A stretch of 35,004 nucleotides of DNA, taken from a virus. The stretch is from IMG/VR virus record IMGVR_UViG_3300025402_000037, positions 1 to 35,004 of that record; one strand, given 5' to 3'. This document shows positions 521 through 32,425 of the stretch, one piece after another; positions within the stretch are counted from its first letter, which is position 1, and each line of letters opens with the position of its first letter. The position numbers and the translations under genes are program-made. The notes under the pieces were generated by a model. It was not told where the DNA came from. It worked only from the letters and a program-made list of their open reading frames with translations, and did not search any database.

Positions 521-1139
521 CAATAATATCCACTTCTATATCTAAATCTAATAGAGCTAGAGCATCGGCATCAGCCTTCTTTTCTTTATTCTTACGGAGC
601 TTCTCTGCTTGCTTCTTGTCAAAGGTGTCAACGAGACTCTTCATATACTCATTATCTAGATTGACGTTGACAGACCTGTTATCTTCACCAATGCTTTGTT
701 CAGCCAACATGCCTTCAAAGTAAAAATTCTCTAATGTCTTTTGTTTAATATAAAGGTGCTTCTTTTCTTTGTCGATTCGTCTAATAAAAGCAAACCAAAT
801 AATCTGTGTAAAATATGCAAAAGGATTGTCTGACTTTTCTGGATTGAAATTGTTCAGATAGTTTACACAATTTTCTAACCCATCTGAAATCATTTCATCT
901 CTAAAGGTATAACCAATGAAGTTAGGCTTTAGTGATAATCGAGTAGCAATCTTAAATAGACACTCACCAATGTAAGCAGGTATTCGAGGATCTATCTTAC
1001 CTTCTGCTCTTGCAACTTCAACATCACGTTTGTGTTGTAGGATGGCTGTGTAGAATTTCTTGTTGTCGATGTAATGTTTATTTGGTGCACGAGACTTATC
1101 TTTAATTTGTGGTTTAATAGTTTTAACAGGTCCACTCAT
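513..1139 (-). CDS. 55: Late-transcription sigma factor gp55
   Basis: A 208-residue protein matching T4-like gp55, the minimal sigma factor that directs host RNA polymerase to TATAAATA late promoters together with gp33 and the gp45 clamp. Recognisable family stretches are NKHYIDNKKFYTAI near the N-terminus and the sigma region 2-like core with NCVNYLNNFNP, NPFAYFTQIIWFAFIRRI and KKHLYIKQ. T4 gp55 is 185 residues, so the length fits. The C-terminus is acidic after a lysine-rich linker. The start ATG at 1139 has AAGGA seven bases upstream. A sigma70-like promoter (1180-1208) just upstream lets the gene be read early by host polymerase, before the late boxes in this window can be used. Confidence 0.93.
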   Translation of the reverse strand: MSGPVKTIKPQIKDKSRAPNKHYIDNKKFYTAILQHKRDVEVARAEGKIDPRIPAYIGECLFKIATRLSLKPNFIGYTFRDEMISDGLENCVNYLNNFNPEKSDNPFAYFTQIIWFAFIRRIDKEKKHLYIKQKTLENFYFEGMLAEQSIGEDNRSVNVNLDNEYMKSLVDTFDKKQAEKLRKNKEKKADADALALLDLDIEVDIIDE

Positions 1140-1179
1140 AATTATTCCTTTAATAGTATTAAATTAATTAATAATTATT

Positions 1180-1208
1180 ATTATAGTTGATTTATTAAAT
1201 TAATGCAA
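1180..1208 (-). promoter_or_regulatory. Sigma70-like promoter for gene 55
   Basis: On the minus strand, -35 TTGCAT (1203-1208) and -10 TATAAT (1180-1185) are separated by exactly 17 bases. The -10 is directly followed by AATAAT, as in the two divergent promoters near 5.1-5.3 kb. It overlaps the stop codon of the upstream 113-residue gene and lies about 40 bases before the gene 55 start. Confidence 0.7.
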
Positions 1209-1541
1209 CGATTTATTTACAATCTTTTCCATTGGAGAATCTTCTTCTTGCTCATCACCATCTTCTAGTTTAAACACTAGCTTCTGGTTTTTGTATAGAT
1301 CAACCATGTCATTGTAATATTTTTTAATTTCATCATTTACTGTCGCAACACTGACAATATTACTTGTCTTGAATACGACGACACCACCATTAGCAAATGG
1401 CATGTACTGGAATGTATACACATTAGGAGTATCCTTCATTAGAGCCAAAGGATATTCAACAGTGAGATAGTCAGTTTCTTCTTTGAGGATGTTAGCAATT
1501 AGAGGAGGACTACCAGGCACTGTGAAAAGCACAATCTTCAT
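1200..1541 (-). CDS. Conserved small T4-like phage protein between uvsW and 55
   Basis: A 113-residue protein. The sequence is beta-rich (IANILKEETDYLTVEYP, YTFQYMPFANGGVVVFKTSNIVSV), followed by a helical stretch and an acidic tail (EDGDEQEEDS). The beta pattern resembles a small barrel of the Sm-like kind, but this is a reading of the pattern and not a family match. A gene of this size and character commonly sits between uvsW and 55 in marine T4-like phages. The start at 1541 has GGAG nine bases upstream, and the gap to the uvsW stop is three bases, so it is co-transcribed with uvsW. Function unknown. Confidence 0.75.
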   Translation of the reverse strand: MKIVLFTVPGSPPLIANILKEETDYLTVEYPLALMKDTPNVYTFQYMPFANGGVVVFKTSNIVSVATVNDEIKKYYNDMVDLYKNQKLVFKLEDGDEQEEDSPMEKIVNKSLH

Positions 1542-1544
1542 TAT

Positions 1545-2978
1545 TTAAAGCTCCATATTGAAGATCCGATACTCGAAACCTTCGTCATTGTAAATATTTA
1601 GTCTCTCTGTAAAATGCTGTAGTGTGAAGTTCATTGTTGATCCTGACTTTAGATCATCAGCAATATCATACAATGTCATTTCAAACTTGTCATCCCCGAT
1701 GCGTAATCCACGACCGATAGACTGTAGTACTCGAACACGAGACTTAGAAGGAGAAGCAAGGACAACAGAATGAAGGTTTCGTATGTTGATTCCTGTAGAA
1801 AACGTGCCATAGCTTGCCACAATAATAGCATCGGATTCTGTCTCAACAATTCCTCTAATTCTCTCTCTGTCATTGCCTTCTACTCCTCCGTGTACAAAAA
1901 ATATCTTTCGGTCAGTATCTTTGGCAGACAGCATATCATATAACATTTTGCCATGCTTGTCTACATATTGAAATAAAATAAGAGAGTTTCCTTTTAAGGA
2001 AAGAGCAAGGTTGCGAATGAATTTATTTCTCTTCTCCAACCGTACAAGGAAGTCCATTTCATCTTGGTATGTGAATTTCTTTGCCAGCTTTCTGGATTCA
2101 GCATCGTGCTGAAGAATCAACGCTTTGATTTTTAGGTTAGCAACATGACCTTGTTCCATTAACTCGGTAGTTGTTGTCACCTGCTTTACAGGACCAAATA
2201 AACCTTCAAGAGTCATCTTGTTTGTAAGAGAACCATCAAGCGTTCCTGTGAACCCAAAACGGTATTTGCACGTCTCCAGCTTTTCCATTATTGATTTGAG
2301 AGACATTGCTTTGAATAGATGGACTTCGTCCCCTATCACACAACCAAATTGTCTAAACCAATCCTTTGGCATCTTGTAGATTGATTGCCATGTGCTGATT
2401 ACAATTTCTTCAGTAGATGTCTTATCGACACCTGCTGTAATGCTATGGATCTTTAATTTGTCTGAGGTGTAGCTATCAAAGTCTTGCTTCATCTGTATGA
2501 CGAGAGATACAGTTGGCACAATGACCAATGTTCTCATTCCCATCTTATTATAAAAACGGGATAGCATAAAGATTATGAAACTTTTACCAGAAGCAGTAGG
2601 AGAAAGGAATACGCCTCTTTCTCTTTTAATAGCTCTTTCGAAAGCTGCTAGTTGATAATCTCTTGGCTGCTTGGTTAATTTAAATTCGTCAAGCTCATAA
2701 TCATATTTTTCAGGAACAAGAGCATTATCTATTTCAACATCGTAGTTTCTAGTACCAGCAAACTCTACAATGTTCTTGACGAGACCTGTGTATGTAAGGC
2801 CTGTCATTGTATTATACAATCTTACTTTGCCATCCCAAAATTTATTTTTAACAGCCGGCATGAATTTGGCGCCAGGCACCTCAAACGTAAAGTAGTCTGA
2901 TATCTCTTGGGAAGTCGAAGGTTCTGCCTCTATTCGTAAATAGGTTTCATTGACCTTCTTTAAATATATATCAGGCAC
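1545..2978 (-). CDS. uvsW: UvsW RNA-DNA / DNA helicase
   Basis: A 477-residue superfamily 2 helicase (T4 UvsW is about 500). UvsW unwinds R-loops, reverses forks and drives branch migration, switching replication from origin-dependent to recombination-dependent mode. Visible motifs are Walker A SPTASGKS (126-133), the DEVH box (217-220), motif III GFTGTL (242-247) and, near the C-terminus, motif VI QSIGRGLRIGDDK. The N-terminal 100 residues, with KFWDGKVRLYN, match the small DNA-binding domain of the family. The start is GTG at 2978, overlapping the uvsY stop by eight bases. An ATG 39 codons downstream is possible but would cut off the N-terminal domain. Confidence 0.94.
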   Translation of the reverse strand: MPDIYLKKVNETYLRIEAEPSTSQEISDYFTFEVPGAKFMPAVKNKFWDGKVRLYNTMTGLTYTGLVKNIVEFAGTRNYDVEIDNALVPEKYDYELDEFKLTKQPRDYQLAAFERAIKRERGVFLSPTASGKSFIIFMLSRFYNKMGMRTLVIVPTVSLVIQMKQDFDSYTSDKLKIHSITAGVDKTSTEEIVISTWQSIYKMPKDWFRQFGCVIGDEVHLFKAMSLKSIMEKLETCKYRFGFTGTLDGSLTNKMTLEGLFGPVKQVTTTTELMEQGHVANLKIKALILQHDAESRKLAKKFTYQDEMDFLVRLEKRNKFIRNLALSLKGNSLILFQYVDKHGKMLYDMLSAKDTDRKIFFVHGGVEGNDRERIRGIVETESDAIIVASYGTFSTGINIRNLHSVVLASPSKSRVRVLQSIGRGLRIGDDKFEMTLYDIADDLKSGSTMNFTLQHFTERLNIYNDEGFEYRIFNMEL

Positions 2979-3405
2979 CTACTTTAAATTTTTCAAAATC
3001 GATTGCATTTTTAATTAAATAGCCTCTGTTGGTTATTGCTCTAATGATTGACTCCAATGAATCAACCTTTTCTTGTTGCATAGAAATCTTTAGATTTAAT
3101 TTGATAATATCTTGGTCTGCATCCAGATGCATAGGAAGATCAGACTTCAATACGTTTAACCTAAATGGCTCCCAGCCATTTGCCTTGAGGTCTTCTTCAG
3201 GCATCACACCCCTGTAGTAGTCGTGCTTTTCCTTGACCAATCCCTTACGCTCTTCTTCTAACCGACGAAGTAGCAATCGCTCTTCAGAAAACACTCTCAA
3301 ATATTTGCTGTGTAATTTTGGAAGCTTTAGACTCTCTTCACCTAGTTCAAACTTATTCACCTGGCAGTCTTCTGCCCACATATCTAGAATTTCATCAAGC
3401 TTCAT
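2971..3405 (-). CDS. uvsY: UvsY recombination mediator
   Basis: A 144-residue protein (T4 UvsY is 137). UvsY loads UvsX recombinase on gp32-covered single-stranded DNA. The protein opens with the typical MKLDEILDMWAEDC helix. It continues with conserved KLPKLHSKYL and LVKEKHDYYRG, a GWEPFRLNVLKSDL-type central region and long charged helices at the C-terminus that would form the oligomer. The start ATG at 3405 has AAGG six bases upstream. The stop overlaps the uvsW start, keeping the usual uvsY-uvsW pairing. UvsX itself is not in the window. Confidence 0.93.
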   Translation of the reverse strand: MKLDEILDMWAEDCQVNKFELGEESLKLPKLHSKYLRVFSEERLLLRRLEEERKGLVKEKHDYYRGVMPEEDLKANGWEPFRLNVLKSDLPMHLDADQDIIKLNLKISMQQEKVDSLESIIRAITNRGYLIKNAIDFEKFKVGA

Positions 3406-3413
3406 AATATACC

Positions 3414-3932
3414 TTAAATTTTGGACACCGTAAATATTCTGTATTTAAATTCTACGGTTGCCGTTATGTAATTAACATCAGTATCAGTCACTCTAAATTC
3501 AACGTCACTTAATGAAATTGGATAAAGATCTTGGAAGGTAACTTGGATGTTTGGAACCATGGCACTTGTCAAGATTGTTAACTCTGCATCCGAGTAAATG
3601 CTTGTCTTTGTGCCAGAGTCACTAGCAGATAAAGTTTTATATTGGCTAAAGCTATCAGGAAATCCCAATGCAATTATCCAATTGTAAATCTCAAAATAGC
3701 CAGAAAAGTCTTCGTCCATTCTAAAGGTCACATTGAATGACCCCATGTCTAATTTATTACCAGCAATTTCAAGATTCTTAAATGGAGTTGGGAAATCCAC
3801 AAATCCAAGAGAGATTGAAGGTAAGTTAGCTTCAGTGACAAAGAAGTTAACGCTAGGGGACCTGCTCAATGAGAACTGGAACCCTAGCGGTGAAAGAAAG
3901 TTGATATTAGCTGGTTGTGTTAGTAGTGCCAT
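3414..3932 (-). CDS. Tail-tube-like structural protein (gp19-like fold; gene 3 position)
   Basis: A 172-residue protein. Its pattern parallels the tail tube protein of this same window (17152-17703). Both have an N-terminal beta region with ANLPSISLG against TAQLPASTLG, then LEIAGNKL..FNVTFRMDEDF against LKLAGDRKFDPWTVTIINDEDF, and a C-terminal strand with a pre-proline turn (FQDLYPISLSDVEF against FNGIFPETITPIDL). A tube-like baseplate or tube-terminus role is therefore likely. Genes at this position between 23 and uvsY in marine T4-like phages are sometimes labelled gene 3 (tail completion). I cannot decide between a gp3 role and another tube-like role. A weak late box lies upstream at 3951-3958. 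Confidence 0.75.
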   Translation of the reverse strand: MALLTQPANINFLSPLGFQFSLSRSPSVNFFVTEANLPSISLGFVDFPTPFKNLEIAGNKLDMGSFNVTFRMDEDFSGYFEIYNWIIALGFPDSFSQYKTLSASDSGTKTSIYSDAELTILTSAMVPNIQVTFQDLYPISLSDVEFRVTDTDVNYITATVEFKYRIFTVSKI

Positions 3933-3950
3933 GATAATACTCCATATCGA

Positions 3951-3958
3951 GTATTTAT
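3951..3958 (-). promoter_or_regulatory. Probable late promoter (GATAAATA)
   Basis: The minus strand reads GATAAATA, one mismatch from the T4 late box. It starts 19 bases before the ATG at 3932, leaving a very short leader in which GGAG of TATGGAGTATT is the RBS. This fits late expression of a virion protein. Confidence 0.45.
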
Positions 3959-3964
3959 CTCAAC

Positions 3965-4177
3965 TCAACCCTTCTTATTGGAGTTGGTGCTAGGAGCACT
4001 ACGTACAATCGAAGTCAGAACAACCATTGCAAACCACGTTTCAAAATTATACGGAATGTTGAGGATAGGGAAGAGAGTGTTAAGAGCCCAGATAGAAAGA
4101 TATGGACCAAGAACAAGAACCATAAAAAGAAAGGCAACGATGCCAAACAAACCAAAGTTTTTGAGTGACGTAAGCAT
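3965..4177 (-). CDS. Small two-helix membrane protein
   Basis: A 70-residue protein with two hydrophobic segments, about residues 9-30 (LFGIVAFLFMVLVLGPYLSI) and 47-60 (WFAMVVLTSIV), with the aromatic NIPYNFETWF stretch between them and a basic, polar tail. Small proteins with this layout recur in T4-like marine phages. Function is not known to me; a holin or inner-membrane role is conceivable but unsupported. The start ATG at 4177 has GGAG eight bases upstream, and the gap to the preceding gene is two bases, so it belongs to the short-gene operon that starts at the 5135-5163 promoter. Confidence 0.7.
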   Translation of the reverse strand: MLTSLKNFGLFGIVAFLFMVLVLGPYLSIWALNTLFPILNIPYNFETWFAMVVLTSIVRSAPSTNSNKKG

Positions 4178-4179
4178 TT

Positions 4180-4383
4180 TTAAATCTCCGATACGAGGTA
4201 AACTTCTTTGTGTGATTGGAGTAGATCCTTTAAAGATGGGCCACGCAGGCCACCTACTTTAAGGTCATTTGTCTTAGAGGAATCGACAACCACTTCAGCA
4301 AAACCTTGTTCATAGACAATTCGTTTGCCAAAATAATTGAAGTCATTGTAGTTACGAAGGTCGAGAGGTATTAGAATTTTCAT
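4180..4383 (-). CDS. Hypothetical protein
   Basis: A 67-residue soluble protein of unknown function. It reads as alternating short strands and helices (MKILIPLDLRNYNDFNYFG, FAEVVVDSS), with no cysteines, membrane segment or recognised motif. It lies between two coupled genes with gaps of one to two bases. The RBS is weak (GAAGAA about nine bases before the ATG), so translation probably depends on coupling to the upstream 135-residue gene. Confidence 0.6.
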   Translation of the reverse strand: MKILIPLDLRNYNDFNYFGKRIVYEQGFAEVVVDSSKTNDLKVGGLRGPSLKDLLQSHKEVYLVSEI

Positions 4384-4384
4384 T

Positions 4385-4792
4385 CTAGAATTCTTCTTCT
4401 AAAGCATTATCAGATTCTTCGTACGATTCAACAAACTCATCATACACAGGATCTGTATCAATGACAACAGCTCCAAAGTGAAGGAGAGCACCATCTTTAT
4501 AGACCTGGAAGTCTGAGCCATAATCAAACGTGCGACCTGCGCAGCTTTCCAACGATTCGTTGCACTGCAAAATACCAATCGTGCCAGAGTCAACCCAGTA
4601 CTGATTGCCATTGAGATCAGGATAGCTACCATCTCCGTATGCTGTACGGAAGATTATATAACTGCGGCCAGAACGAAGCGTGTGGATCTTACCATCGATG
4701 TGATCAATCATTTCTTCCCAGATTTCATCATCATGATAACAAAGATCACCAATCAAATAACGGCCAGCAGGAAGAGTAACGATGTTTGTCAT
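4385..4792 (-). CDS. Hypothetical acidic beta-rich phage protein
   Basis: A 135-residue protein starting MTNIVTLPAGRYLIGDLCY. The N-terminal LPAGRYLIGDLCY motif followed by a large beta-rich body (SYIIFRTAYGDGSYPD, YWVDSGTIGIL, FQVYKDGALLHFGAVVIDTDP) and an acidic tail is a pattern I associate with a widespread family of uncharacterised phage and bacterial proteins. The ATG at 4792 is preferred to the TTG at 4798 because AAGG lies seven bases before the ATG. The start overlaps the stop of a 32-codon ORF upstream by a few bases. Function unknown. Confidence 0.7.
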   Translation of the reverse strand: MTNIVTLPAGRYLIGDLCYHDDEIWEEMIDHIDGKIHTLRSGRSYIIFRTAYGDGSYPDLNGNQYWVDSGTIGILQCNESLESCAGRTFDYGSDFQVYKDGALLHFGAVVIDTDPVYDEFVESYEESDNALEEEF

Positions 4793-4794
4793 GT

Positions 4795-4893
4795 TCAAGC
4801 CTTATCGAAAAAAAACTCATATACAGCACATAGTGCCAACATACCAAAACCAAGTTCAATCCAAGGCGCATAAGCCATAATCACAGTGGTCAT
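4795..4893 (-). CDS. 32-residue membrane peptide
   Basis: A short ORF with strong local support. ATG at 4893 has AAGGA seven bases upstream (inside the end of the preceding gene). The stop sits three bases before the next ATG, and the product has one hydrophobic segment (IELGFGMLALCAVYEFFF) followed by DKA. It fills an otherwise empty 100-base gap in a tightly packed operon. A small membrane regulator or a coupling leader are both possible. No family recognised. Confidence 0.5.
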   Translation of the reverse strand: MTTVIMAYAPWIELGFGMLALCAVYEFFFDKA

Positions 4894-4894
4894 G

Positions 4895-5107
4895 TTAGAT
4901 TCCTTTATGACGTGCGTTATAATCATCTACTTCTGCTTTTATAGCATTGTACATATCAGTATCAAGCTGGTCAGCATAGCTGCGGAGCTGAGTGACGATG
5001 TCTAGGATCTCATTCTCGAGACCAAGACGAGTAACATCGCGGCGGCGGGCATATTCAACGACCTCTAAAAGACGATCGGCGAAGGTAACAGCATCATTGA
5101 CGTTCAT
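4895..5107 (-). CDS. Hypothetical helical protein, first gene of the leftward small-gene operon
   Basis: A 70-residue, mostly helical protein (AVTFADRLLEVVEYARRRD, ENEILDIVTQLRSYADQL), with no recognised family. The start is ATG at 5107, preceded by GGAGAG eight bases upstream. A 26-codon N-terminal extension is open but would run through the mapped -10 and -35, so it is rejected. The promoter, leader and RBS are a near copy, in inverted orientation, of those of the divergent metallopeptidase gene, so the two genes are likely expressed at the same time. Confidence 0.65.
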   Translation of the reverse strand: MNVNDAVTFADRLLEVVEYARRRDVTRLGLENEILDIVTQLRSYADQLDTDMYNAIKAEVDDYNARHKGI

Positions 5108-5134
5108 TTGTATCTCTCCATTGCTCATATTATT

Positions 5135-5163
5135 AATATAGGGCATTCTGAATAAAAAAGCAA
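5135..5163 (-). promoter_or_regulatory. Sigma70-like promoter, leftward
   Basis: Minus strand: -35 TTGCTT (5158-5163), 17-base spacer, -10 TATATT (5135-5140), followed by AATAATAT. The transcript would start near 5128 and carry a short leader ending in AATGGAGAGATACAA before the ATG at 5107. The layout and sequence mirror the rightward promoter at 5266-5294. Confidence 0.7.
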
Positions 5164-5193
5164 CAAAATAATTTAAAATAATCATAAAATGTG

Positions 5194-5210
5194 CCCTTGA
5201 TATTACAGGG
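5194..5210 (-). promoter_or_regulatory. 17-bp dyad element upstream of the leftward promoter (putative operator)
   Basis: Read leftward, the site is CCCTGTAATATCAAGGG, with dyad ends CCCT-N9-AGGG. It lies 30 bases upstream of the leftward -35. A second copy with the same orientation relative to its own promoter is at 5229-5245. On the plus strand it is followed by seven T, but the stem is only four pairs, so a terminator is less likely than a protein-binding site. Confidence 0.45.
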
Positions 5211-5228
5211 TTTTTTTATTTTAATTTT

Positions 5229-5245
5229 CCCTGTGTTTTCAAGGG
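5229..5245 (+). promoter_or_regulatory. 17-bp dyad element upstream of the rightward promoter (putative operator)
   Basis: The plus strand reads CCCTGTGTTTTCAAGGG, again CCCT-N9-AGGG and matching the 5194-5210 site at 14 of 17 positions when that site is read leftward. It lies 20 bases upstream of the rightward -35, ten bases (about one helical turn) closer than its partner. The position upstream of -35 suits an activator or an UP-like element better than a blocking repressor. Confidence 0.45.
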
Positions 5246-5265
5246 GTGATTTTTTAATAAAATCG

Positions 5266-5294
5266 TTGCCTTTTTATCCGTCTTGTCCTATTAT
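5266..5294 (+). promoter_or_regulatory. Sigma70-like promoter, rightward
   Basis: -35 TTGCCT (5266-5271), 17-base spacer, -10 TATTAT (5289-5294), followed by AATAATAT. It drives the ten-gene plus-strand cluster. The leader carries AATGGAGAGATAGAA before the ATG at 5322, nearly identical to the leader of the divergent gene. The gap 5108-5321 holds only this double control region. Confidence 0.72.
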
Positions 5295-5321
5295 AATAAT
5301 ATAAGGAATGGAGAGATAGAA

Positions 5322-5831
5322 ATGAATTTGATCACTAAAGGCAATGTTGAAACGACTCATCAAGCGTTTTATGTCGATAAGAAGCATAAAGCCAAAACCA
5401 AGAATCGTGTTGAGATTGCTTCGAAGTTGATTCCATTTTTGAAAACCAAGTTGAATTTTGCTTCTGACGTGAAGATCATTATTTCTTTCATCAAAGCAAA
5501 GAACACAGCTGGGATGTACCAGCCCACTTTTAAATATGCCACAATCGATCCTCGCATGGGGACAATCGAGCAGTTCATCGATTGCCTCTGCCATGAGTTG
5601 GTTCATGCAGAACAGTATCACACTGGCATGCTTAGCACCGTATTTGATTGCAATGAAGGCACCAAGTTTGTTTGGAACAAAGGCCAACCTAAAGGTCTTC
5701 CATACAGCCATGCCAAGTACTTGGCACTCCCTTGGGAAGTTGATGCTCGTACGCGTGCAAAAGAGCTTGTCAAGGAAATCCAGGAATCTGGAATCCTTGG
5801 CACCACCTATCTGAAACAGATGTACATTTAA
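5322..5831 (+). CDS. Putative zinc metallopeptidase (SprT-like / HExxH)
   Basis: A 169-residue protein with the zinc-peptidase motif HELVH (91-95) in the context DCLCHELVHAEQYH. A downstream glutamate in LPWEVDARTRAKEL (E139) would be the third zinc ligand or part of the usual second motif. The layout, a small alpha/beta N-terminal half and then HExxH in a helix, matches SprT-like and other small phage metallopeptidase-like proteins. The substrate is unknown. The start at 5322 is set by GGAGAG nine bases upstream; a 13-codon extension would overlap the -10. It is the first gene of the plus-strand cluster. A non-proteolytic zinc protein is possible. Confidence 0.7.
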   Translation: MNLITKGNVETTHQAFYVDKKHKAKTKNRVEIASKLIPFLKTKLNFASDVKIIISFIKAKNTAGMYQPTFKYATIDPRMGTIEQFIDCLCHELVHAEQYHTGMLSTVFDCNEGTKFVWNKGQPKGLPYSHAKYLALPWEVDARTRAKELVKEIQESGILGTTYLKQMYI

Positions 5832-5846
5832 TTTAAGGAAAGCAAT

Positions 5847-6035
5847 ATGACTTACGTTTTTGTGCTTACAATGTCGATGCTCGTTTCTGGAACAGAGCCT
5901 TCCAAGATTACAGTGGAAACGCCTATGAAGGACAAAGCTGCATGTGAGATCGTCCTGCAGAATTTTAAAACCACGTTTGCTACTCAAACTGGAATCCCTT
6001 CCCTTCCTACAATGGAATGCAAGAAAAAGCCATGA
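5847..6035 (+). CDS. Hypothetical small protein, possibly exported
   Basis: A 62-residue protein with a hydrophobic N-terminus (MTYVFVLTMSMLVSG) that could act as a weak signal peptide or membrane anchor. The rest is polar with two cysteines (residues 33 and 58) that could pair in the periplasm. The leader lacks the basic residues expected of a strong signal peptide, so export is uncertain. AAGGAA lies about six bases before the ATG. The end overlaps the next gene by ATGA, a sign of coupled translation. Confidence 0.55.
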   Translation: MTYVFVLTMSMLVSGTEPSKITVETPMKDKAACEIVLQNFKTTFATQTGIPSLPTMECKKKP

Positions 6036-6343
6036 TTGTAAAAACCAAAACTGGACTTCATGAAGGTGAACTCGTAGCGACACCACGTTGGGTCGACTAT
6101 GAGGCAATTGCTCTTACAACCAACGAACCTAAGTTCAGGGTTCGTATCATCCCAAAAGAATCAATCGTTTCAATTGGTGGTGAAGCCAGCAAGTTTATTG
6201 CAGCTCCTGTCGAACGTGAGATAACTGTTGCTGGATCTAAAGGCAACGTGTATACTGTCACTATTGGGACCAAACATAAGAGCTGTACGTGTCCTGCATT
6301 TCAGTTCCGTAGATCATGTAAGCATGTAGCAGAGGCTGTATAA
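6032..6343 (+). CDS. SWIM-type zinc-finger protein
   Basis: A 103-residue protein ending in a SWIM zinc finger, CTCPAFQFRRSCKH, which fits the family pattern CxCx(n)CxH. The preceding strands (VEREITVAGSKGNVYTVTIG) form the usual beta lead-in to the finger. SWIM domains bind DNA or proteins; here the domain makes up the C-terminal third, and the N-terminal part (LHEGELVATPRWVDYEAIAL) is not recognised. The start at 6032 is chosen because it overlaps the upstream stop as ATGA. An in-frame ATG at 6017 would add five residues. Function in the phage is unknown. Confidence 0.75.
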   Translation: MIVKTKTGLHEGELVATPRWVDYEAIALTTNEPKFRVRIIPKESIVSIGGEASKFIAAPVEREITVAGSKGNVYTVTIGTKHKSCTCPAFQFRRSCKHVAEAV

Positions 6344-6344
6344 T

Positions 6345-6683
6345 ATGAATCCCGAAGACTTTATGGTGGATGTTGAGCATGTACCTTCTAAATGGGGTAG
6401 TGAAGTTGAAATCGAAAGACGTAATAGGATTAAACTATCAGTTGCGGCCTACGCTTACGAAGTGCATTCTGATTCTATTATGTCTGATGGTGAATTTGAT
6501 CATCTGGCTTTGCAGATAAACGAAGTTTTAGTCACAGGCAACGAATTATTGGATAAGTTCTTTGTTGAAGAATTTAGTCCATATACAGGACAATGGATAC
6601 ACAAGCATCCTGATAAGGCTGGACTAGAAAAGATATATCTGGCTTTTTATGCAGGGAAGAAGAAGGGTAGGCGGAAGCTATGA
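6345..6683 (+). CDS. Hypothetical protein with a LigA-Ia-like helical motif
   Basis: A 112-residue protein. One stretch, AAYAYEVHSDSIMSDGEFDHLALQI, resembles in pattern the Ia domain of NAD-dependent DNA ligases (Y-x-Y....x-I-S-D-x-E-Y-D-x-L). Ligase catalytic residues are absent and the length is far too short, so at most it is a stand-alone NAD-binding-like or structural module. The C-terminus is very basic (KKKGRRKL). ATG at 6345 has GAGG about ten bases upstream, and the stop overlaps the next ATG by four bases. Function unknown. Confidence 0.65.
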   Translation: MNPEDFMVDVEHVPSKWGSEVEIERRNRIKLSVAAYAYEVHSDSIMSDGEFDHLALQINEVLVTGNELLDKFFVEEFSPYTGQWIHKHPDKAGLEKIYLAFYAGKKKGRRKL

Positions 6684-7132
6684 GTGTATTGCAGTGTAAT
6701 ATTAAGAATGAATCTTCATGGTTAGATGACAGCACAATCGTTAAGATTGAAGATAGCTACAATGCTACGTATGTGTTTGAATCATGTCTGAAAGACGTTT
6801 ATGGCAACTGGGCTAACTTTCCTGTTGCTATCTTTTATACAGAAGTAGCACATCCTCAAGGATCCAATTACTTTGGTCTGTATAAAACAGAAGGTGGCAC
6901 TGTTATGATAACCAACGGCATTAAGGCAACAGAGAATCCTATCTCTGGTGTGATGTCTAAGAATGGTGATGTTATATATTCTCGATATCGTCATGACTAT
7001 CGGACTTCTGATGATGGTTCGGTCTTTGTCGATGGAGGTAGAGATTATTTCCGTTCTGGTGTATATGATAAAGATCAGTATGTGAAATTGCGTGTCAATA
7101 AGGATAAGCTGGAGGCTTTTAGAGATGATTGA
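6680..7132 (+). CDS. Hypothetical protein
   Basis: A 150-residue beta-rich protein. Stretches such as NATYVFESCLKDVYGNWANFPVAIFYTE and NYFGLYKTEGGTVMITNG alternate strands and turns, followed by a Tyr/Asp/Arg-rich segment (YSRYRHDYRTSDDGSVFVDGG). There is no signal peptide, membrane segment or known motif. It starts with ATGA overlap on the preceding gene and overlaps the following start by eight bases, so the four genes 6032-7322 form a coupled set. I do not recognise the family. Confidence 0.6.
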   Translation: MSVLQCNIKNESSWLDDSTIVKIEDSYNATYVFESCLKDVYGNWANFPVAIFYTEVAHPQGSNYFGLYKTEGGTVMITNGIKATENPISGVMSKNGDVIYSRYRHDYRTSDDGSVFVDGGRDYFRSGVYDKDQYVKLRVNKDKLEAFRDD

Positions 7133-7322
7133 TGACGAATATAAAGTAGTATACCAGTTCACTAAGACTATGAGGAATAGTGGGATGGAAGAATATCCAG
7201 ATGAGAACGTCCAGATTACGTTTGATGGAACAGAAACAAATATACATGTAATGTTGAGTCAATTTGAAACATTCTTGCGAGCGGCAGGATACATTTTTGA
7301 CCATTTGGTGGTAGTACGATGA
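7125..7322 (+). CDS. Hypothetical small protein
   Basis: A 65-residue protein starting MIDDEYKVVYQFTK. The ATG at 7125 is chosen over upstream in-frame starts because GGAGG lies nine bases before it. The sequence alternates charged and aromatic residues, with NVQITFDGTETNIHVMLSQFETFLRAAGY suggesting two strands and a helix. The stop overlaps the next gene start as ATGA, so it is coupled to the membrane protein gene that follows. No family recognised. Confidence 0.6.
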   Translation: MIDDEYKVVYQFTKTMRNSGMEEYPDENVQITFDGTETNIHVMLSQFETFLRAAGYIFDHLVVVR

Positions 7323-8512
7323 TTAGTAATATTATTAAGACCCTTGTAGCCACGATGGCTTACTTGGTTTTCATTAGCCTTGTTAATCCTTTGGCAACGT
7401 TGATTACAGGCGTTGTAGCAGGAGGTCAATTTGACAACAGTTCTATGTCATATCTAAGTGCAACTTTTGTTTTTACAATGTTTAACACATTGTATTTTGT
7501 TGCTACGTTTGGATTCTTGATGTCACTATTTGCAATTTGGATGAAGACGCTGAAGGAATTTATCGCTGCTTCAGTTGCGTTGGGTTTGCTGTTTGTGGTA
7601 GCACAACCACAACAGGCTTTTGCATATGCAGACACAACTGATAAGACAGAAGCATATACAATCCTTCCTAATGAATCTGCTTTCTGGATTCCAGATGTTG
7701 GTGCTAATAAGGATATACAAGTTAAGTTTGACTCTGAATCGTATCTGAGTGATAATAAGGTTGCAGCAAAGCGCTTTATTGTACCTCATGCTAAGCTTGG
7801 TAATTCTGGTGGGTTCCTTGGATGGGATTATTATGTTCCTACAGGACGTTTGATTATTGTAGATCGTACACCATATTCTCGTGAATGGGTTAAATCCAAT
7901 GCACGTGGTACATCTACTGGCGATCAATCATTTCCATGTCAGTCCAAGGAGGGGTTGAATATCACTGCAGGTGTTTCAATTGGTGCTTCTGTATCTGAAG
8001 AAAATGCTGCTAAGTTCTTGTATCGCTTTGGTGTTGTAACACCTCAGGGTGATCGTAAGGATCCTCAGGTAATCTTTGCATCAGTATATACAGGTCGTTC
8101 GCTAGCCAATGTGATGGATGATGTGGGTCGTAAGAAGATTCAGACACTTGTTTGCGCAGAGATTGGCAAGCGTACGTTCGACCAGGCAAACGATGATATG
8201 ATTGTTATGATGGATAGCATTCAGAAGACGACCAAAGAGTATTTTGCTTCTGTTGGTATCACCCTAGACTTTATCGGATGGGCTGACACGTTTGAGTTTG
8301 ATCCATCTGTACAGAAGGCTGTCAACGATCGTTATATTGCTAACAAGCTAGCTTCTGCACTTCCTGTCCTGCAAGCTGTTGCTGGTCTTAAAGTTCAAGA
8401 AGGTCTTGGTTCTGGTTTGGATAAGCATGGCTTGCCTATCGTAGTCACTCCTCAGATGATTGATGCGTTGATTGGATTGGCTCCTAAAGTCATTGTTCCG
8501 GAGGCAAAATAA
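7319..8512 (+). CDS. Membrane-anchored SPFH/Band-7-like protein
   Basis: A 397-residue protein with three hydrophobic segments at about residues 5-35, 46-74 and 80-98, followed by QAFAYA, and then a large soluble domain. That domain begins with LIIVDRTPYSREW, continues with EGLNITAGVSIGASVSEENAAKFLYRFG, and ends with a long helical part (VMDDVGRKKIQTLVCAEIGKRTFDQ, KTTKEYFASVGITLDFIGWAD). The strand order and the closing G-I-x-L-x-x-I-G-W motif resemble SPFH (prohibitin/stomatin) domains, which build ring-like membrane scaffolds and control membrane proteases. The soluble part probably faces the periplasm. The three-helix anchor is longer than usual for the family. The fold is inferred from pattern only; the phage role is unknown, with envelope remodelling or exclusion possible. 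Confidence 0.65.
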   Translation: MISNIIKTLVATMAYLVFISLVNPLATLITGVVAGGQFDNSSMSYLSATFVFTMFNTLYFVATFGFLMSLFAIWMKTLKEFIAASVALGLLFVVAQPQQAFAYADTTDKTEAYTILPNESAFWIPDVGANKDIQVKFDSESYLSDNKVAAKRFIVPHAKLGNSGGFLGWDYYVPTGRLIIVDRTPYSREWVKSNARGTSTGDQSFPCQSKEGLNITAGVSIGASVSEENAAKFLYRFGVVTPQGDRKDPQVIFASVYTGRSLANVMDDVGRKKIQTLVCAEIGKRTFDQANDDMIVMMDSIQKTTKEYFASVGITLDFIGWADTFEFDPSVQKAVNDRYIANKLASALPVLQAVAGLKVQEGLGSGLDKHGLPIVVTPQMIDALIGLAPKVIVPEAK

Positions 8513-8793
8513 TGAATCGTCGTAGTTTATTTGGAGCATTAGCACTATCGCCTTTAATGGCGGTAGCTGCTTTTGCTAAAGAAGACATCTCTAATGATCA
8601 ACCTATTCCAGAATCAACACAAATTACTATTATGGGTAGTAAAAAACTTAAGCCAGTTAAATCAAAATACGGTTTGAGTTTTAATAATGCTGAGACTGAT
8701 CCTAATAAAGCAGTATCAATGGCAGTAGGAGAAGATGTTAATCTTTGGTTGAAAAATAAAAATGGAAATTGGAAAAGGATCGTAACAGAATGA
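8512..8793 (+). CDS. Small exported protein with Tat-like leader
   Basis: A 93-residue protein whose first 22 residues form a signal peptide: MNRRSLFGALALSPLMAVAAFA, with an AxA-type cleavage site before KED. The RR followed by SLF resembles the twin-arginine motif, but the sequence is not a full S-R-R-x-F-L-K match, so Sec export is possible. The mature part (about 70 residues) is polar, with VGEDVNLWLKNKNGNWKRIVTE at the end suggesting a small beta domain. GGAGG precedes the start, which overlaps the SPFH-like stop (TAATG). It probably works with that membrane protein in the periplasm. Confidence 0.65.
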   Translation: MNRRSLFGALALSPLMAVAAFAKEDISNDQPIPESTQITIMGSKKLKPVKSKYGLSFNNAETDPNKAVSMAVGEDVNLWLKNKNGNWKRIVTE

Positions 8794-9119
8794 AAAAGTT
8801 ATTGATTGCTGGTATGTTGCTTATTACAACTCCAGTATTAGCAGACAAACCAGTTACATTGACTTGTGCATTCCAAACTGGTGAAAGTTTTACTGCAGTA
8901 GGTACAGGCAATAAAACAATTATTCAATGGGACAAATCTGCTACGTTCTTTGAAGCTTCGAGTGTATATGTTGACCCATGGCTTTTTATCACAGAAGCTA
9001 GTGAGCAAGGCAACGTATTCAAAATGGCTTTTAATGTTCGTACAAAAGAAGCATATGGTGAAACACAATTTGCTGATGGACACAAATCAAATGGACCTTT
9101 GTGGTGCATTTTTAAATAA
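8790..9119 (+). CDS. Small secreted or periplasmic protein
   Basis: A 109-residue protein with a classical Sec signal peptide (MKKLLIAGMLLITTPVLA, cleavage before DKP). The mature domain has cysteines at LTCAFQ and near the end (LWCIFK), likely forming a disulfide that closes a beta sandwich-like fold (VTLTCAFQTGESF..., TIIQWDKSATFFEASSVYV). Start ATG at 8790 overlaps the upstream stop as ATGA; an open extension of seven residues would destroy the signal peptide. No known family. It is the third envelope-directed product in a row. Confidence 0.7.
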   Translation: MKKLLIAGMLLITTPVLADKPVTLTCAFQTGESFTAVGTGNKTIIQWDKSATFFEASSVYVDPWLFITEASEQGNVFKMAFNVRTKEAYGETQFADGHKSNGPLWCIFK

Positions 9120-9155
9120 GGACAATGTTAGTTGAAAATCGTGGAGGTTACAAAT

Positions 9156-9410
9156 ATGTCGGATGAAGTGCAAGATGTTATTGATGGGTATCACAAAGAA
9201 ACATCAGAAGAACGCAAACAGCGTAAGGATCGTGAAGATCGTCGTTGGAATAAGCAATGGGCTATGGAAAAGTCTATTGAGTGGTCCAAGCATATTAACG
9301 AGTTGGTGTCGACACCAGATAATGGCGTAACAGGTGTTATTATGACAAGTATCGACGTTCATACTATTGCAGATGGTTTTTACAAATGGCTTTATAAAGA
9401 TACCCAGTAA
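9156..9410 (+). CDS. Hypothetical charged protein, last gene of the plus-strand cluster
   Basis: An 84-residue protein starting MSDEVQDVIDGYHKE, with a highly charged helix (EERKQRKDREDRRWNKQW) and a C-terminal half without known motif. The ATG at 9156 has GGAGG eight bases upstream; the TTG at 9132 is rejected. It ends four bases before the terminator stem. The charge pattern would fit an RNA- or protein-binding helix, but this is speculation. Confidence 0.6.
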   Translation: MSDEVQDVIDGYHKETSEERKQRKDREDRRWNKQWAMEKSIEWSKHINELVSTPDNGVTGVIMTSIDVHTIADGFYKWLYKDTQ

Positions 9411-26726: not shown

Positions 26727-27713
26727 TTAAATACCTGCAAATCCTTTAGCAGCCAACATACCAAACCAAGTAGCACCACCATCAATCGTATACAAGTTAA
26801 TGATGTCTACATATCCACCTGTTGTTGAAAGAGTAGGACCTGTTGAAGGGACGTTCTCTGATGTAGGCCAGTATATTGTTTGATTAGACCAGTCAATTGT
26901 TCTTGAACCATAAGGATCCTGTGCAACAAAGAAGGTATACGAATATAACTTACCTGATACTAATCCTGTGGTATCCATTACGATTGGAACAATACTTGCT
27001 GTCAGCGTAATATTAACAATGTTGCCAAGAGATAACGATACTGTTGTGCTTATGCTACGATTGGCAAGATTATTTACATTTTCACCATATCCTTGGAATA
27101 CAGGAACATATATCGTGTTGCTATTGAAATTAACATCTGTTACCATGTTATTGGTAATGTATGTATTGGAGTCAAATACAATTCCAGTTGCTGCTGCATT
27201 TACTCTTAAGAAGTTACCAGCGTGTCCAGTATATGAAGAAGGTGCATCTATCAAAGTAGTAAATGCAACTGTGCCTGCTGAACCTGTGTATCCAGTACTA
27301 CCTTGTGAACCTCTAAAGCCTGCAGAGCCCAAATATCCAACAGAACCATTGTAACCAATAGCAACACCTGTGCTGCCCATGTAACCTACTGAACCTTGGA
27401 AACCAATATCACCAATTGATCCTTGATAACCAATACTAGTCACGCCAACCGAACCTTGGTATCCAACGTCACCCATAGAGCCTTGGAAGCCTGTGTCGCC
27501 AGGGAATCCTAAAAGACCTACCGATCCTACATAACCTGTATCACCCTGTGATCCTTGAAAACCTGCTGATCCTTGAAAACCAACAGCTGTGTATGTAGAA
27601 GAATTAGCCCAATACGCTCCATTACTTCCAAAAGTAATGATCGAACCCGCTGAAGCACTTTGTCCGTTGGCTTGTGTTCCATTAATTTGGGAAACAAAAA
27701 TTTGAGTAGTCAT
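26727..27713 (-). CDS. Collagen-like fibre protein
   Basis: A 328-residue protein. Residues about 45-145 are Gly-X-Y repeats (GFQGSAGFQGSQGDTGYVGS and similar), a collagen-like triple-helix stalk. The C-terminal 180 residues form a beta-rich globular region (ITLTASIVPIVMDTTGLVSGKLYSYTFFVAQDP, GYVDIINLYTIDGGATWFGM) that may be the receptor or trimer-closing domain. The N-terminus MTTQIFVSQINGTQANGQ differs from the other fibre genes. The start overlaps no gene; late box at 27748-27755. Confidence 0.75.
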   Translation of the reverse strand: MTTQIFVSQINGTQANGQSASAGSIITFGSNGAYWANSSTYTAVGFQGSAGFQGSQGDTGYVGSVGLLGFPGDTGFQGSMGDVGYQGSVGVTSIGYQGSIGDIGFQGSVGYMGSTGVAIGYNGSVGYLGSAGFRGSQGSTGYTGSAGTVAFTTLIDAPSSYTGHAGNFLRVNAAATGIVFDSNTYITNNMVTDVNFNSNTIYVPVFQGYGENVNNLANRSISTTVSLSLGNIVNITLTASIVPIVMDTTGLVSGKLYSYTFFVAQDPYGSRTIDWSNQTIYWPTSENVPSTGPTLSTTGGYVDIINLYTIDGGATWFGMLAAKGFAGI

Positions 27714-27747
27714 TATTGAAACTTCCTAAGAGGTGTGTTGTTTTAAG

Positions 27748-27755
27748 TATTTATA
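27748..27755 (-). promoter_or_regulatory. Late promoter (TATAAATA)
   Basis: A perfect late box on the minus strand, 34 bases before the ATG of the 328-residue collagen-like gene, in the 51-base gap after the 612-residue fibre gene. Confidence 0.72.
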
Positions 27756-27764
27756 GCTTTACTA

Positions 27765-29603
27765 TTATGCAGCGAATGCACCTGAAGATATACTAATCTT
27801 TTCAACAGTATAAAAACTACCAGCTAGCACTGTTGCAGTACCAGCAGATTGTGTCAAGCGTAATCTCCAGTTAGTGGCAGCGTTAGTGGTAACCCACATC
27901 TGTAGCATATACATATGGTTGACTGCCGTTGTTAACGATGTAGCAGAAGGATTCCATGCCCACGTTGCAGCACCTTGGTCGTAGAAATATTGCTCTATCT
28001 GTGTATAAGCAGCTGCGGTTGCAGCAGTCATACCTGTAACTGGCGTTACATATTGATAACCATTCACAATTGTTGGTGCAGAACTAAATGTCTGTGTCCA
28101 TGTAGCAGTACCTGCTGTATTTTTAGTAAAATAAACCCAACATCTAATTATATAAACAGAAGTTGCTTCTAAAGAAACTGAACTTGGTGAAGTAAACACG
28201 TCAGCAATTGCTGCACCAAAAGCTGTTTCGTTTGCTGTGACACGAAAAGTTTGTATAGTTGGAATGTGACCTCTACCAGAAGTAGCATTTTCTGTTCCGT
28301 ATAGATATGTACCATCATATTCCATGTAACCAGCAGTTGCAGTTCCCAACGAAACACTTGAAAACTTAATTGGACTTTTAATAGTAGGTGCATTAATGGT
28401 AACCGTAGTACCTGTAGAAAGAAAGTTGTTACCTACTAAAGCTGAAGTTCCATATGAGTTACCCACCAACGCAGTTACAGCATAGTTGTTACTGACTAAT
28501 GATGCTGTAGCATAGGAGTTGGATACACCAACTGCTGCTGATTGGTAAAATGCGTTGGAAACGTATGCATTGGTAGCATAGGTGTTTGACACTAACACAC
28601 TACCGTTAATTGAAACAGAAGTACTATTAATAACGGTATTTGTTGTAGCATTACCTACAACAATATATGATGCAGCATTTACAGACAAGTTTGCATTGAA
28701 TGTAGTTACACCTGTGCTTGATATAACAATTGGTTCTATATAAGTTTCTGAGCCTACGGCTCCAGAATGTACCCAAACCTGTAATCCACCACCAACCGTT
28801 CCTTGGATAGCACCACCACCATTGTTATTGGCTGTAAATTGTACACCGCCACCAGAAAGGCCTGAACCTGCACTATTGACTACTAATGCAATTGCATTAT
28901 CAGATGGTAATGTTCCTGCAGCACCTATACTGACATTGGAATAGAATATTGATGCTGAACTACCAGTATCTAAGAAAGAAGTATTTAATATACCACCACC
29001 ATATAATGTCAAACCACCATAATTTAATTGAGCTGATAGATAGGTACCTTCATAAAAGTTAAAGCTACCAGCACCTGTTGAAACACCAAGCCACATATTA
29101 GTACCATCCGTACCAACAGCTATATCAGCACTGCTGCCAGATTCACCTGCATACAATTGTAATCTTGTACCAACACTTGGTGTCGAGAAAGATGGGGTAC
29201 CAATATCAGCATTATTGAATGCAATATAGTTAGATGTTGCTCCATTGAGTGTTATTTGAGGTCCATAAGGATTAGTAATAAAAACACCAGTAGCGTTTGC
29301 TGTAAATGTATTATTGACAGTCAATGAGGTGTTGACTGAAGTAACACCCATATATGTGGTGTTAGTAGATTTATTAAAGGTAAGGGAAGGTGATCCATTT
29401 GCAAAGCTACTGTCGTTAAAAAGTACTTGTGTGTTGGAACCAGAGATGGGACCAGTAGCACCAGCGCTACCCTGATACCCTAGACTACCTTGATATCCTG
29501 AGTTGCCTACTATAGTCCACGTAGTGCCTGTCCATCTCCAGGTTTGTCCACCTGTAACTGTTAATTGTCCTACTGAAGGACTTGAAGGAAATGATAATGA
29601 CAT
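27765..29603 (-). CDS. Large fibre protein with short collagen-like linker
   Basis: A 612-residue protein. N-terminal MSLSFPSSPSVGQLTVTGG followed by TWRWTGTTW is a module shared with the 404-residue gene at 31175-32389. Then come a short SGYQGSLGYQGSAG linker and a long Asn/Ser/Thr/Gly-rich beta region. Within it, near 330-410, is a repeated pattern of VSNSYATASLVSNNYAV-type units (Y-A-x-x-x-L-V-x-N-x), suggesting a repeated stalk. The C-terminal 140 residues (ETAFGAAIADVFTSPSSVSLEATSVYIIRCWVYF onwards) look like a globular beta domain. It is likely a receptor-binding or side-fibre protein. RBS AAGG, late box 19 bases upstream. Confidence 0.7.
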   Translation of the reverse strand: MSLSFPSSPSVGQLTVTGGQTWRWTGTTWTIVGNSGYQGSLGYQGSAGATGPISGSNTQVLFNDSSFANGSPSLTFNKSTNTTYMGVTSVNTSLTVNNTFTANATGVFITNPYGPQITLNGATSNYIAFNNADIGTPSFSTPSVGTRLQLYAGESGSSADIAVGTDGTNMWLGVSTGAGSFNFYEGTYLSAQLNYGGLTLYGGGILNTSFLDTGSSASIFYSNVSIGAAGTLPSDNAIALVVNSAGSGLSGGGVQFTANNNGGGAIQGTVGGGLQVWVHSGAVGSETYIEPIVISSTGVTTFNANLSVNAASYIVVGNATTNTVINSTSVSINGSVLVSNTYATNAYVSNAFYQSAAVGVSNSYATASLVSNNYAVTALVGNSYGTSALVGNNFLSTGTTVTINAPTIKSPIKFSSVSLGTATAGYMEYDGTYLYGTENATSGRGHIPTIQTFRVTANETAFGAAIADVFTSPSSVSLEATSVYIIRCWVYFTKNTAGTATWTQTFSSAPTIVNGYQYVTPVTGMTAATAAAYTQIEQYFYDQGAATWAWNPSATSLTTAVNHMYMLQMWVTTNAATNWRLRLTQSAGTATVLAGSFYTVEKISISSGAFAA

Positions 29604-29621
29604 TTGTACCTTTTTTAGTAA

Positions 29622-29629
29622 TATTTATA
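29622..29629 (-). promoter_or_regulatory. Late promoter (TATAAATA)
   Basis: A perfect late box on the minus strand in the 28-base gap between two fibre genes, 18 bases before the ATG of the 612-residue fibre gene. It overlaps no coding sequence. Confidence 0.75.
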
Positions 29630-29631
29630 CA

Positions 29632-31170
29632 TTAAACAAAAATAGTAGCTACGTTGGTAACGTATGCGTTAGTGGACCCACTGAAGAATGTAAAAAAAGT
29701 ATTAGAGAATGTTGATGTTACTAGCGAAGAGTTACTCGATGTGGTAATTGTAATTGATGAATTGGCAACGAAAATACTAGCAACTCCAGCAGCATCTGTG
29801 TATATATTAGTAGAATATAAATTCACATAAGGAACATATGTTCCTGTTCCCAGAGGACCATATGATCCTGATTTGTATCCAGATGCTGGTTGTTTTACAA
29901 CAAACCCAGATACAATATTTGTACCACCAACTTGAAATTCACCAGATTGGGATGTATATATGTTGTTGTTTGCATCAACGTAAGCCCCTCCCGACGAAGG
30001 ACTTATATTTGTATTACTGGATGTTCGATTGTAAAATGTTGAGTATTCAGATATATTAAAAGTTGAAGATAAAGTATTGGAGTATTGCATTAAAATGTAT
30101 TTATTGTTTATTATAAAATTTGAATTTATCTCTTCCACAAGACTCGTATAATAGACATTTGAAGATGCTTTATCTATTATTATACCTCTTGTATATGAAA
30201 GGGAACTACTGGCAAACGTGTTTGGTGTCAGTACCTGTCTTTGTCCTATAATAGTATTCAGTGTATTATTAATTTTAGCTACCATTGGCTGTGAATAACT
30301 ATAAGTTGTATTTGCTTGATGTGTAATTGTTCCTGAAATGTATATATTATTACCAGAATCAATAGTCATGCCATTAAGTGTAATCGAGTTGTTGCTGCTA
30401 GAACTTGTATAAAATGCACAAGTATTAATAACTGTAGTGCCTGTAGAGTTTATTTTGTAAATAGGGTTTACATACCCCAATGACCACCCACTATAAGAAG
30501 TTCCTGCTACAGCATATATGTTGCTATTGCTATCTACAGCAATTCCTCCAAAGGAATTGCTGTCACTTCTAGTCCAGCCATATAGTGTTGTATATTGAAG
30601 AATATTTTTTATGAATATAACTGAACCAGCACTAGAATATTTTGCTACAAAACCACTACCGTTTATATCGCTTCCAGCTATTACAATACTTCCATCGTTA
30701 GGATCTAACGCAGCACTTAGTGTTGGTGCTTCGTCTAATATTGCAGAAGTATTTGTTATTAAATTTTGAAAAATTACATTGGAATTGTAGTCTAGTTTTA
30801 GTAAAAATACACTGCCATTGTTATACCCCACTACGTAAACATATGTAGATGTAGAATCTACTAATATTACTTCTGCTCTGGTTCCCGACCCTGTACCAAA
30901 TTGTACACCACCATTGCCTTTCATGAAGGTTTGCCATACTGTTGAACCAGATTTATTCATTTTGAAAATAGTAGCGATGTACGTTGTCGTTGAGGACAGC
31001 GAATTTGCAGTATACCCTGCTACGTAGATATTTTGATATTTGTCTACTGCAATATTTCGCAAATATACATTTGGCCCTGTAAATGTACTATCACCAGCAC
31101 TAAAAGTAGAAATAAGTGTGTTGCTTACAAGGGGAAATGTTTTAAACGAATCAATAACAAAAGCTGTCAT
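29632..31170 (-). CDS. Fibre-region protein with seven beta-propeller-like repeats
   Basis: A 512-residue protein built from seven repeats of the type IAVDxxxNIYVAG (IAVDKYQNIYVAG, ILVDSTSTYVYVVG, AALDPNDGSIVIAG, IAVDSNSNIYAVAG, MTIDSGNNIYISG, IIIDKASSNVYYTS, AYVDANNNIYTSQ). Each is followed by a strand ending in a K-I/Y-N/S-x-x-G turn. This is the SBBP/NHL-like pattern of a beta-propeller, and seven units would close one seven-bladed ring. The C-terminal 100 residues are Ser/Thr/Asn-rich. It has no signal peptide. Between collagen-like fibre genes, it is probably a sugar- or surface-binding adhesin. It starts four bases after the preceding stop. Confidence 0.7.
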   Translation of the reverse strand: MTAFVIDSFKTFPLVSNTLISTFSAGDSTFTGPNVYLRNIAVDKYQNIYVAGYTANSLSSTTTYIATIFKMNKSGSTVWQTFMKGNGGVQFGTGSGTRAEVILVDSTSTYVYVVGYNNGSVFLLKLDYNSNVIFQNLITNTSAILDEAPTLSAALDPNDGSIVIAGSDINGSGFVAKYSSAGSVIFIKNILQYTTLYGWTRSDSNSFGGIAVDSNSNIYAVAGTSYSGWSLGYVNPIYKINSTGTTVINTCAFYTSSSSNNSITLNGMTIDSGNNIYISGTITHQANTTYSYSQPMVAKINNTLNTIIGQRQVLTPNTFASSSLSYTRGIIIDKASSNVYYTSLVEEINSNFIINNKYILMQYSNTLSSTFNISEYSTFYNRTSSNTNISPSSGGAYVDANNNIYTSQSGEFQVGGTNIVSGFVVKQPASGYKSGSYGPLGTGTYVPYVNLYSTNIYTDAAGVASIFVANSSITITTSSNSSLVTSTFSNTFFTFFSGSTNAYVTNVATIFV

Positions 31171-31174
31171 AATA

Positions 31175-32389: not shown

Positions 32390-32412
32390 AATATATCCTG
32401 TAATGTTTTAAA

Positions 32413-32420
32413 TATTTATG
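32413..32420 (-). promoter_or_regulatory. Possible late promoter (CATAAATA)
   Basis: The minus strand reads CATAAATA, one mismatch from the late box, in the 36-base gap between the glycine-rich and the 404-residue genes, 23 bases before the ATG at 32389. Confidence 0.45.
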
Positions 32421-32425
32421 TTATA

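Follow-up and report, generated by a model that had tools for sequence, protein, structure and literature searches.

Back-to-back members of a dispersed promoter-leader family at a conserved divergent hub of a T4-like phage and its relatives

Promoter plus early stem-loop elements (PeSLs), which are said to go back to Arbiol et al. in 2010 and Comeau et al. in 2014, are the closest known kind to the repeated modules analyzed here, which represent a variant of them. Multi-operator control of a divergent region is exemplified by OR of phage lambda. As in OR, pseudo-palindromes of 16 to 17 nt are repeated between divergent promoters at the locus described below, but they lie upstream of both promoters (at about -55 to -75) rather than on them, and in a T4-like phage. 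PeSLs are described as "mobile regulatory cassettes" of T4-type phages (PMC4503421). Like PeSLs, the hub modules comprise repeated, intergenic promoters of the sigma70 type, predicted to be early, in a T4-like phage; they are densest where genes shuffle, genes are gained or lost at the repeats, and many copies (up to 15 per contig) precede unrelated genes of 61 families. Unlike PeSLs, the hub-module repeat runs through the leader into the ribosome binding site (RBS), the element upstream of it, rather than a demonstrated terminator, is a dyad that is conserved, phased with the helix, and weak in its stems, and the modules gather at one conserved divergent hub. With T4 early promoters (PMC2988021) they have in common a UP-like AT stretch, a good -35 and -10, and an expected use of host RNA polymerase, whereas the copies analyzed here are without the TGn extended -10 and hub modules have upstream dyads and a very strongly conserved transcribed leader and RBS. 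By these features, the hub promoters appear to resemble the early, and not the middle, promoters of T4.

The window, i.e., the whole stretch of DNA analyzed, comprises the 35,004 bases of an IMG/VR virus record, with genes for UvsW, UvsY, a tail tube protein, and the late sigma factor gp55. It is a T4-like genome, as indicated by gp55, UvsW, UvsY, and gp23 similarity and by synteny with Stenotrophomonas phage DLP6, the nearest cultured record, with whose gp23 the window protein shares 64% identity. The original prediction was that a whole promoter module is present here twice, as a divergent inverted duplication. The two inverted occurrences were borne out by the sequence itself, by alignment, and by a repeat search, in which 5103-5178 and 5251-5326 (76 nt, 78% complementary) constitute the longest inverted repeat of the window. 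Local alignment of arm against arm, suggested at the outset as a check against shuffled controls, gave a score of 70, compared with a mean of 18.8 (standard deviation, 3.0) and a maximum of 37 for dinucleotide-preserving shuffles (n = 2000). When the final 25 nt, which comprise the RBS and start, were left off, the score was 37 and the shuffle maximum was 35; the upstream part of the arms alone is beyond shuffles, though only just, and the alignment signal comes mostly from the -10, leader, and RBS.

In both arms, as in the consensus of the wider family, a 17-nt spacer separates a -35 from a -10, and these are the elements of a sigma70-like promoter, with early timing as a prediction (Table 1). 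The -10 is followed in both by AATAATAT, an RBS block, and ATG, and the RBS/start blocks of both arms match AATGGAGAGATASAAATGAA exactly; a third copy of this block is absent within the 35-kb window. A -10 of the TAT(A/T)TT type had been expected on both sides, which holds for the left (TATATT) but not for the right (TATTAT). Similarity over about 100 bases had also been claimed. It is real, but because the distance from dyad to -35 is unequal (26 bp in the right arm and 36 bp in the left, a difference of about 10 bp), the full 100 nt are collinear only with a gap of ~8 nt.

Table 1. Positions of promoter elements, dyads, and gene clusters in the window
Feature	Position	Strand	Remarks
Small-gene operon from left promoter	3965..5107	-	ORFs 4895-5107, 4795-4926, 4385-4798, 4180-4383, 3965-4177
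Left leader and RBS AATAATATGAGCAATGGAGAGATACAA	5108..5134	-	Ahead of ATG 5107; sequence
Identical 30-nt stretch of both parental modules (91-aa gene, L004; 5107 gene, L007)	5112..5141	-	Putative crossover segment
Left promoter -10 TATATT	5135..5140	-	17-nt spacer; predicted start about 5128
Left promoter -35 TTGCTT	5158..5163	-	Sequence; fits family consensus GTTG[AC]C
Left dyad CCCTTGATATTACAGGG	5194..5210	.	Putative regulator site; 36 bp from left -35
Right dyad CCCTGTGTTTTCAAGGG	5229..5245	.	Putative regulator site; 26 bp from right -35
Right promoter -35 TTGCCT	5266..5271	+	Sequence, family consensus
Right promoter -10 TATTAT	5289..5294	+	17-nt spacer; predicted start about 5301
Right leader and RBS AATAATATAAGGAATGGAGAGATAGAA	5295..5321	+	Ahead of ATG 5322; sequence
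Opposite-strand cluster from right promoter	5322..9410	+	SprT/DUF6782-like, SWIM zinc finger, NAD-ligase N-domain-like, and Band-7/SPFH-like proteins and small ORFs

Further copies, for which a search of related phages had been proposed, are numerous: the exact 21-nt leader TAATAATATRAGSAATGGAGA occurs in 63 IMG/VR contigs. Gapless alignment of 40 distinct promoters yields the consensus GTTG[AC]C-N17-TATATT-type -10-AATAATATRAGSAATGGAGA, which includes leader and RBS and in which the leader letters were set by the search pattern. Family promoters also carry an A/T-rich UP-like stretch, and a profile search without the exact anchor adds degenerate copies with altered leaders. Long contigs (32 to 118 kb) have between 1 and 15 copies at an E value of ≤0.01, and the 35-kb window fragment has only 2. 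Neighboring modules are divergent in 29 cases, tandem in 64, and convergent in none. The 237 module-headed ORFs encode 157 distinct proteins belonging to about 61 families, and the genes behind modules are therefore truly unrelated, as had been stated for the genes flanking the two arms. To describe the arms as a copy of the whole module made at this site is misleading; they are two members of a family dispersed in a clade of uncultured T4-like phages, the left one hybrid-like. Coordinated (early) expression of the two transcription units, the functional consequence originally proposed, is plausible and is strengthened, if indirectly, by the presence of a near-identical promoter family at the head of many genes.

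No module was found in phage DLP6, and a blastn search of 50,697 cultured phage records returned chance matches only (E values of 0.3 and worse), a further difference from PeSLs. Matches in bacterial genomes were restricted to three contigs, none with a complete module: one match lies in Clostridium sequence that has nothing else of the module, and two are at ends of Chloroflexi metagenome-assembled-genome (MAG) contigs, in both of which only the leader part is matched. In an Rfam search of 4700-5700, the sole hit was a chance one that fell well short of the gathering score.

The island at 3965-9410 sits between gp23 and the tail tube gene, and its two halves diverge from the module pair. Its plus-strand cluster encodes a DUF6782/SprT-like peptidase, a SWIM zinc finger protein, an NAD-ligase N-domain-like protein, a Band-7/SPFH-like protein, and small ORFs, with the DUF6782 and Band-7 matches lying under the curated cut-off. 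The ligase-like match, in a 112-amino-acid (aa) ORF at 6345-6683, is limited to the N-terminal (Ia) domain of NAD-dependent DNA ligase (PF22745; E = 6e-10). In DLP6, gp23, an exonuclease gene, and the tail tube, UvsY, UvsW, and gp55 genes are consecutive on one strand, and the island is absent. The order gp23, opposite-strand cluster, divergent modules, small-gene operon, and tail tube-uvsY-uvsW-gp55 recurs in contigs L004, L047, L029, G008, G011, and G013, as far as each contig extends, with the small-gene operon itself kept at the same location in L004, L047, L029, and G011. The number of modules on the two sides of the hub is 1 + 1 in the window, 2 + 1 in L004 and L047, and 2 + 2 in G011 and G013. 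Judged from this synteny, the divergent hub and its polarity switch are an old shared feature.

Both window dyads, 36 bp apart from center to center, belong to the motif CCNTTGAWATCANNGG. This motif occurs at 1.3 per kb within 150 bp of modules and at 0.03 per kb elsewhere, a ratio inflated by the training of the motif on hub sites. Dyads occur as arrays of two to four similar sites and are found upstream of 28 of 35 divergent modules but only 31 of 127 other modules. In 51 distinct modules, the nearest dyad lies 17 to 20 bp (25 modules), 27 to 29 bp (16 modules), 37 to 41 bp (9 modules), or 47 bp (1 module) from the -35, with none between these classes, and 0 of 100,000 uniform simulations were as clustered. 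The clustering was seen and tested on one set and then repeated on the modules of a second scan, in which the distances were 19, 19, 19, 19, 20, 27, 27, 28, 29, 29, 31, and 47 bp (P = 2e-4). Spacings from dyad to dyad are 25 to 28, 34 to 37, 44 to 48, and 58 bp, with a best period of 10.25 to 10.5 bp. An independent scan of same-strand pairs, in which 18 to 48 bp was allowed, found those beside modules at 25 to 28 and 33 to 37 bp, with one poor match at 21 bp, and those away from modules spread over the whole range; inverted pairs beside modules are 36 bp apart. The spacings may be partly inherited through shared descent of the modules, and a repeat unit 26 bp long may also account for part of them. 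With 36 bp between them and 26 bp (right) or 36 bp (left) to the -35, the two window dyads fit the family spacing. Dyads have both orientations about equally often, in divergent and other contexts alike. A hairpin with the hub-dyad core, ATTGAAATCATT-N14-AATGATTTCAAT, was also observed after a stop codon in L312-L322 (e.g., L312 7360-7397), a phage group without the module; the spacing between its centers amounts to exactly 26 bp.

A gene for a 91-aa protein, absent from the window, separates the left hub module from the 5107-type gene in L004 and L049. A 57% relative occupies the same place in G011. The final 48 codons of the gene are likewise found at this place, at the contig end, in L007/L042, which matches the window over 899-5166 with 98.5% identity. 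Gene content thus differs between close relatives exactly at the module, with the 91-aa gene being present in L042 (in part) and L004/L049 and absent from the window. The upstream part of the left window module (dyad and AT stretch) corresponds to the module of the 91-aa gene, and its leader and start correspond to the module of the 5107 gene; the two parental modules have 30 identical bases in common, CTATATTAATAATATGAGCAATGGAGAGAT. Such a hybrid is what would be expected if recombination within the 30 identical bases had deleted the 91-aa gene, and deletion by recombination between modules is the simplest reading; the argument depends in part on contigs that end near the module. Alternatively, the window junction could be an assembly collapse, since L041, whose identity to the window is 99.96% from 5114 onward, breaks off right at the junction with a fold-back, and a search for the exact junction in other contigs found none. 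Two contigs of sample 3300025723 (L041, at 1-30, and L042, the same as L007, at its end) stop at or beside the module, one of them with a fold-back, and these ends are assembly breaks at the repeated cassette. Module-headed members of the 91-aa family are present in L004 (2061-2333), L006, L040, L058, G008, and G011. The AlphaFold model of the 91-aa protein has three helices and a hairpin (pLDDT of 85), and helix-turn-helix-like matches of the family are weak only. As a candidate for a protein acting on the dyads, it was rejected: matches in the PDB were not significant, and no Pfam or PHROG family fits.

On balance, we judge it probable that the two arms are family members placed at a conserved hub, that they provide early co-reading of the two gene clusters and module-mediated gene exchange, and that the dyads are regulator sites. 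Copies of the family stand before unrelated genes, the hub is conserved, and genes are present or absent exactly at module boundaries. The exchangeable cassette would be a sigma70-type promoter with a fixed short leader and an RBS, two such cassettes being back to back at the hub center, and host RNA polymerase would read both clusters early and together from the two promoters. The ~30 nt common to modules could serve as homology for phage recombination, by which units of a module and a small gene may be gained, lost, or swapped with their expression signals kept; the window may have lost its 91-aa gene by such module recombination. The 16- to 17-nt dyads upstream of the UP-like AT stretch may be sites for a dimeric host or phage protein. 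Distances quantized at the helical repeat, both orientations, and enrichment in divergent regions together point to a putative protein site on DNA. The putative dyad-binding protein would act on both promoters from one helix face, most likely as an activator, given the dyad positions of about -55, -65, and -75, upstream of the promoters. We offer more tentatively a stronger version, in which phased dyad operator arrays at one fixed divergent hub drive both banks of exchangeable early-gene cassettes, forming a regulated gene-capture platform. If cassettes are exchanged in this way, a T4-like phage could trade small accessory genes without loss of expression, because the same promoter, leader, and RBS precede each gene, and the shared module sequence would double as recombination homology. 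Accessory genes of uncultured phages could also be located by a simple rule, a module plus its first ORF, and an early-transcription regulator with an exact, testable putative binding site is predicted from the phased dyads.

The sequence features seem to favor regulator sites on DNA over terminators, but terminators stay a serious rival because of the T-runs after most dyads (57 of 68, on the TTGA strand). The dyads would then be the stem-loop terminators of PeSL cassettes, insulating the promoters from read-through or antisense transcription, and their spacing would follow from unit length and descent, an account that we consider unlikely but by no means negligible. This cassette type is known in T4-like phages (PMC4503421), a scanner places a terminator-like site at 5195-5210, and elements with the dyad core are found after stop codons in unrelated phages. 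Folded together, the two window dyads form a hairpin of -21.9 kcal/mol, whereas single window dyads fold at a weak -4.9 to -6.7 kcal/mol, and covariation of the dyad flanks is not significant (2.41 pairs versus 2.27 by chance; P = 0.08). Terminators would also not be expected to be commonest between divergent promoters, where no gene ends, to point either way about equally, to be rare elsewhere in the genomes (by the hub-trained motif), or to have distances quantized at the helical repeat.

The remaining alternatives concern the hub as a whole. One of them, suggested in the original prediction, holds that the whole promoter region was copied here in a single inverted duplication, which created the polarity switch on insertion of the plus-strand cluster. 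The inverted repeat (78% over 76 nt) and the single polarity of DLP6, which is without the island, are in keeping with this, but six other diverged contigs have the divergent layout too, often together with additional modules, and the modules are a dispersed family. Arms within a hub showed no significantly greater similarity than arms taken from separate hubs, and concerted evolution of hub arms was not significant by permutation (P = 0.08 for promoters and P = 0.25 for dyad arms). Since relatives have the same hub, the window copy is unlikely to have created the polarity switch; its origin by a single duplication is largely refuted, and we regard this explanation as improbable. It is very improbable, too, that the hub is a replication origin with the dyads serving as iteron-like initiator sites and the promoters as the source of primers, comparable to oriF of T4, a promoter-primed origin beside uvsY. 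Arrays of two to four similar sites in an AT-rich divergent region near uvsY would suit an origin; GC skew, however, tracks the gene strand with no separate inflection at the hub, and dyads also accompany non-divergent modules. Hardly any weight can be given to the idea that the promoters are of the T4 middle type, with a MotA box. The left -35 region does contain TTGCTTTTTTA, which resembles the MotA box core TGCTT, but the distance between a MotA box and the -10 is 12 ± 1 bp (PMC2988021), whereas here the TGCTT-like element occupies the -35, separated from the -10 by a spacer of 17 nt, and GTTG[AC]C is the consensus of the family.

Outside the hub, the region 27269-35004 of the window has very many collagen-like repeats of 9/18 nt (CCTTGGAA.CC) in minus-strand ORFs that are cut by the contig end; these are probably tail-fiber or adhesin genes.
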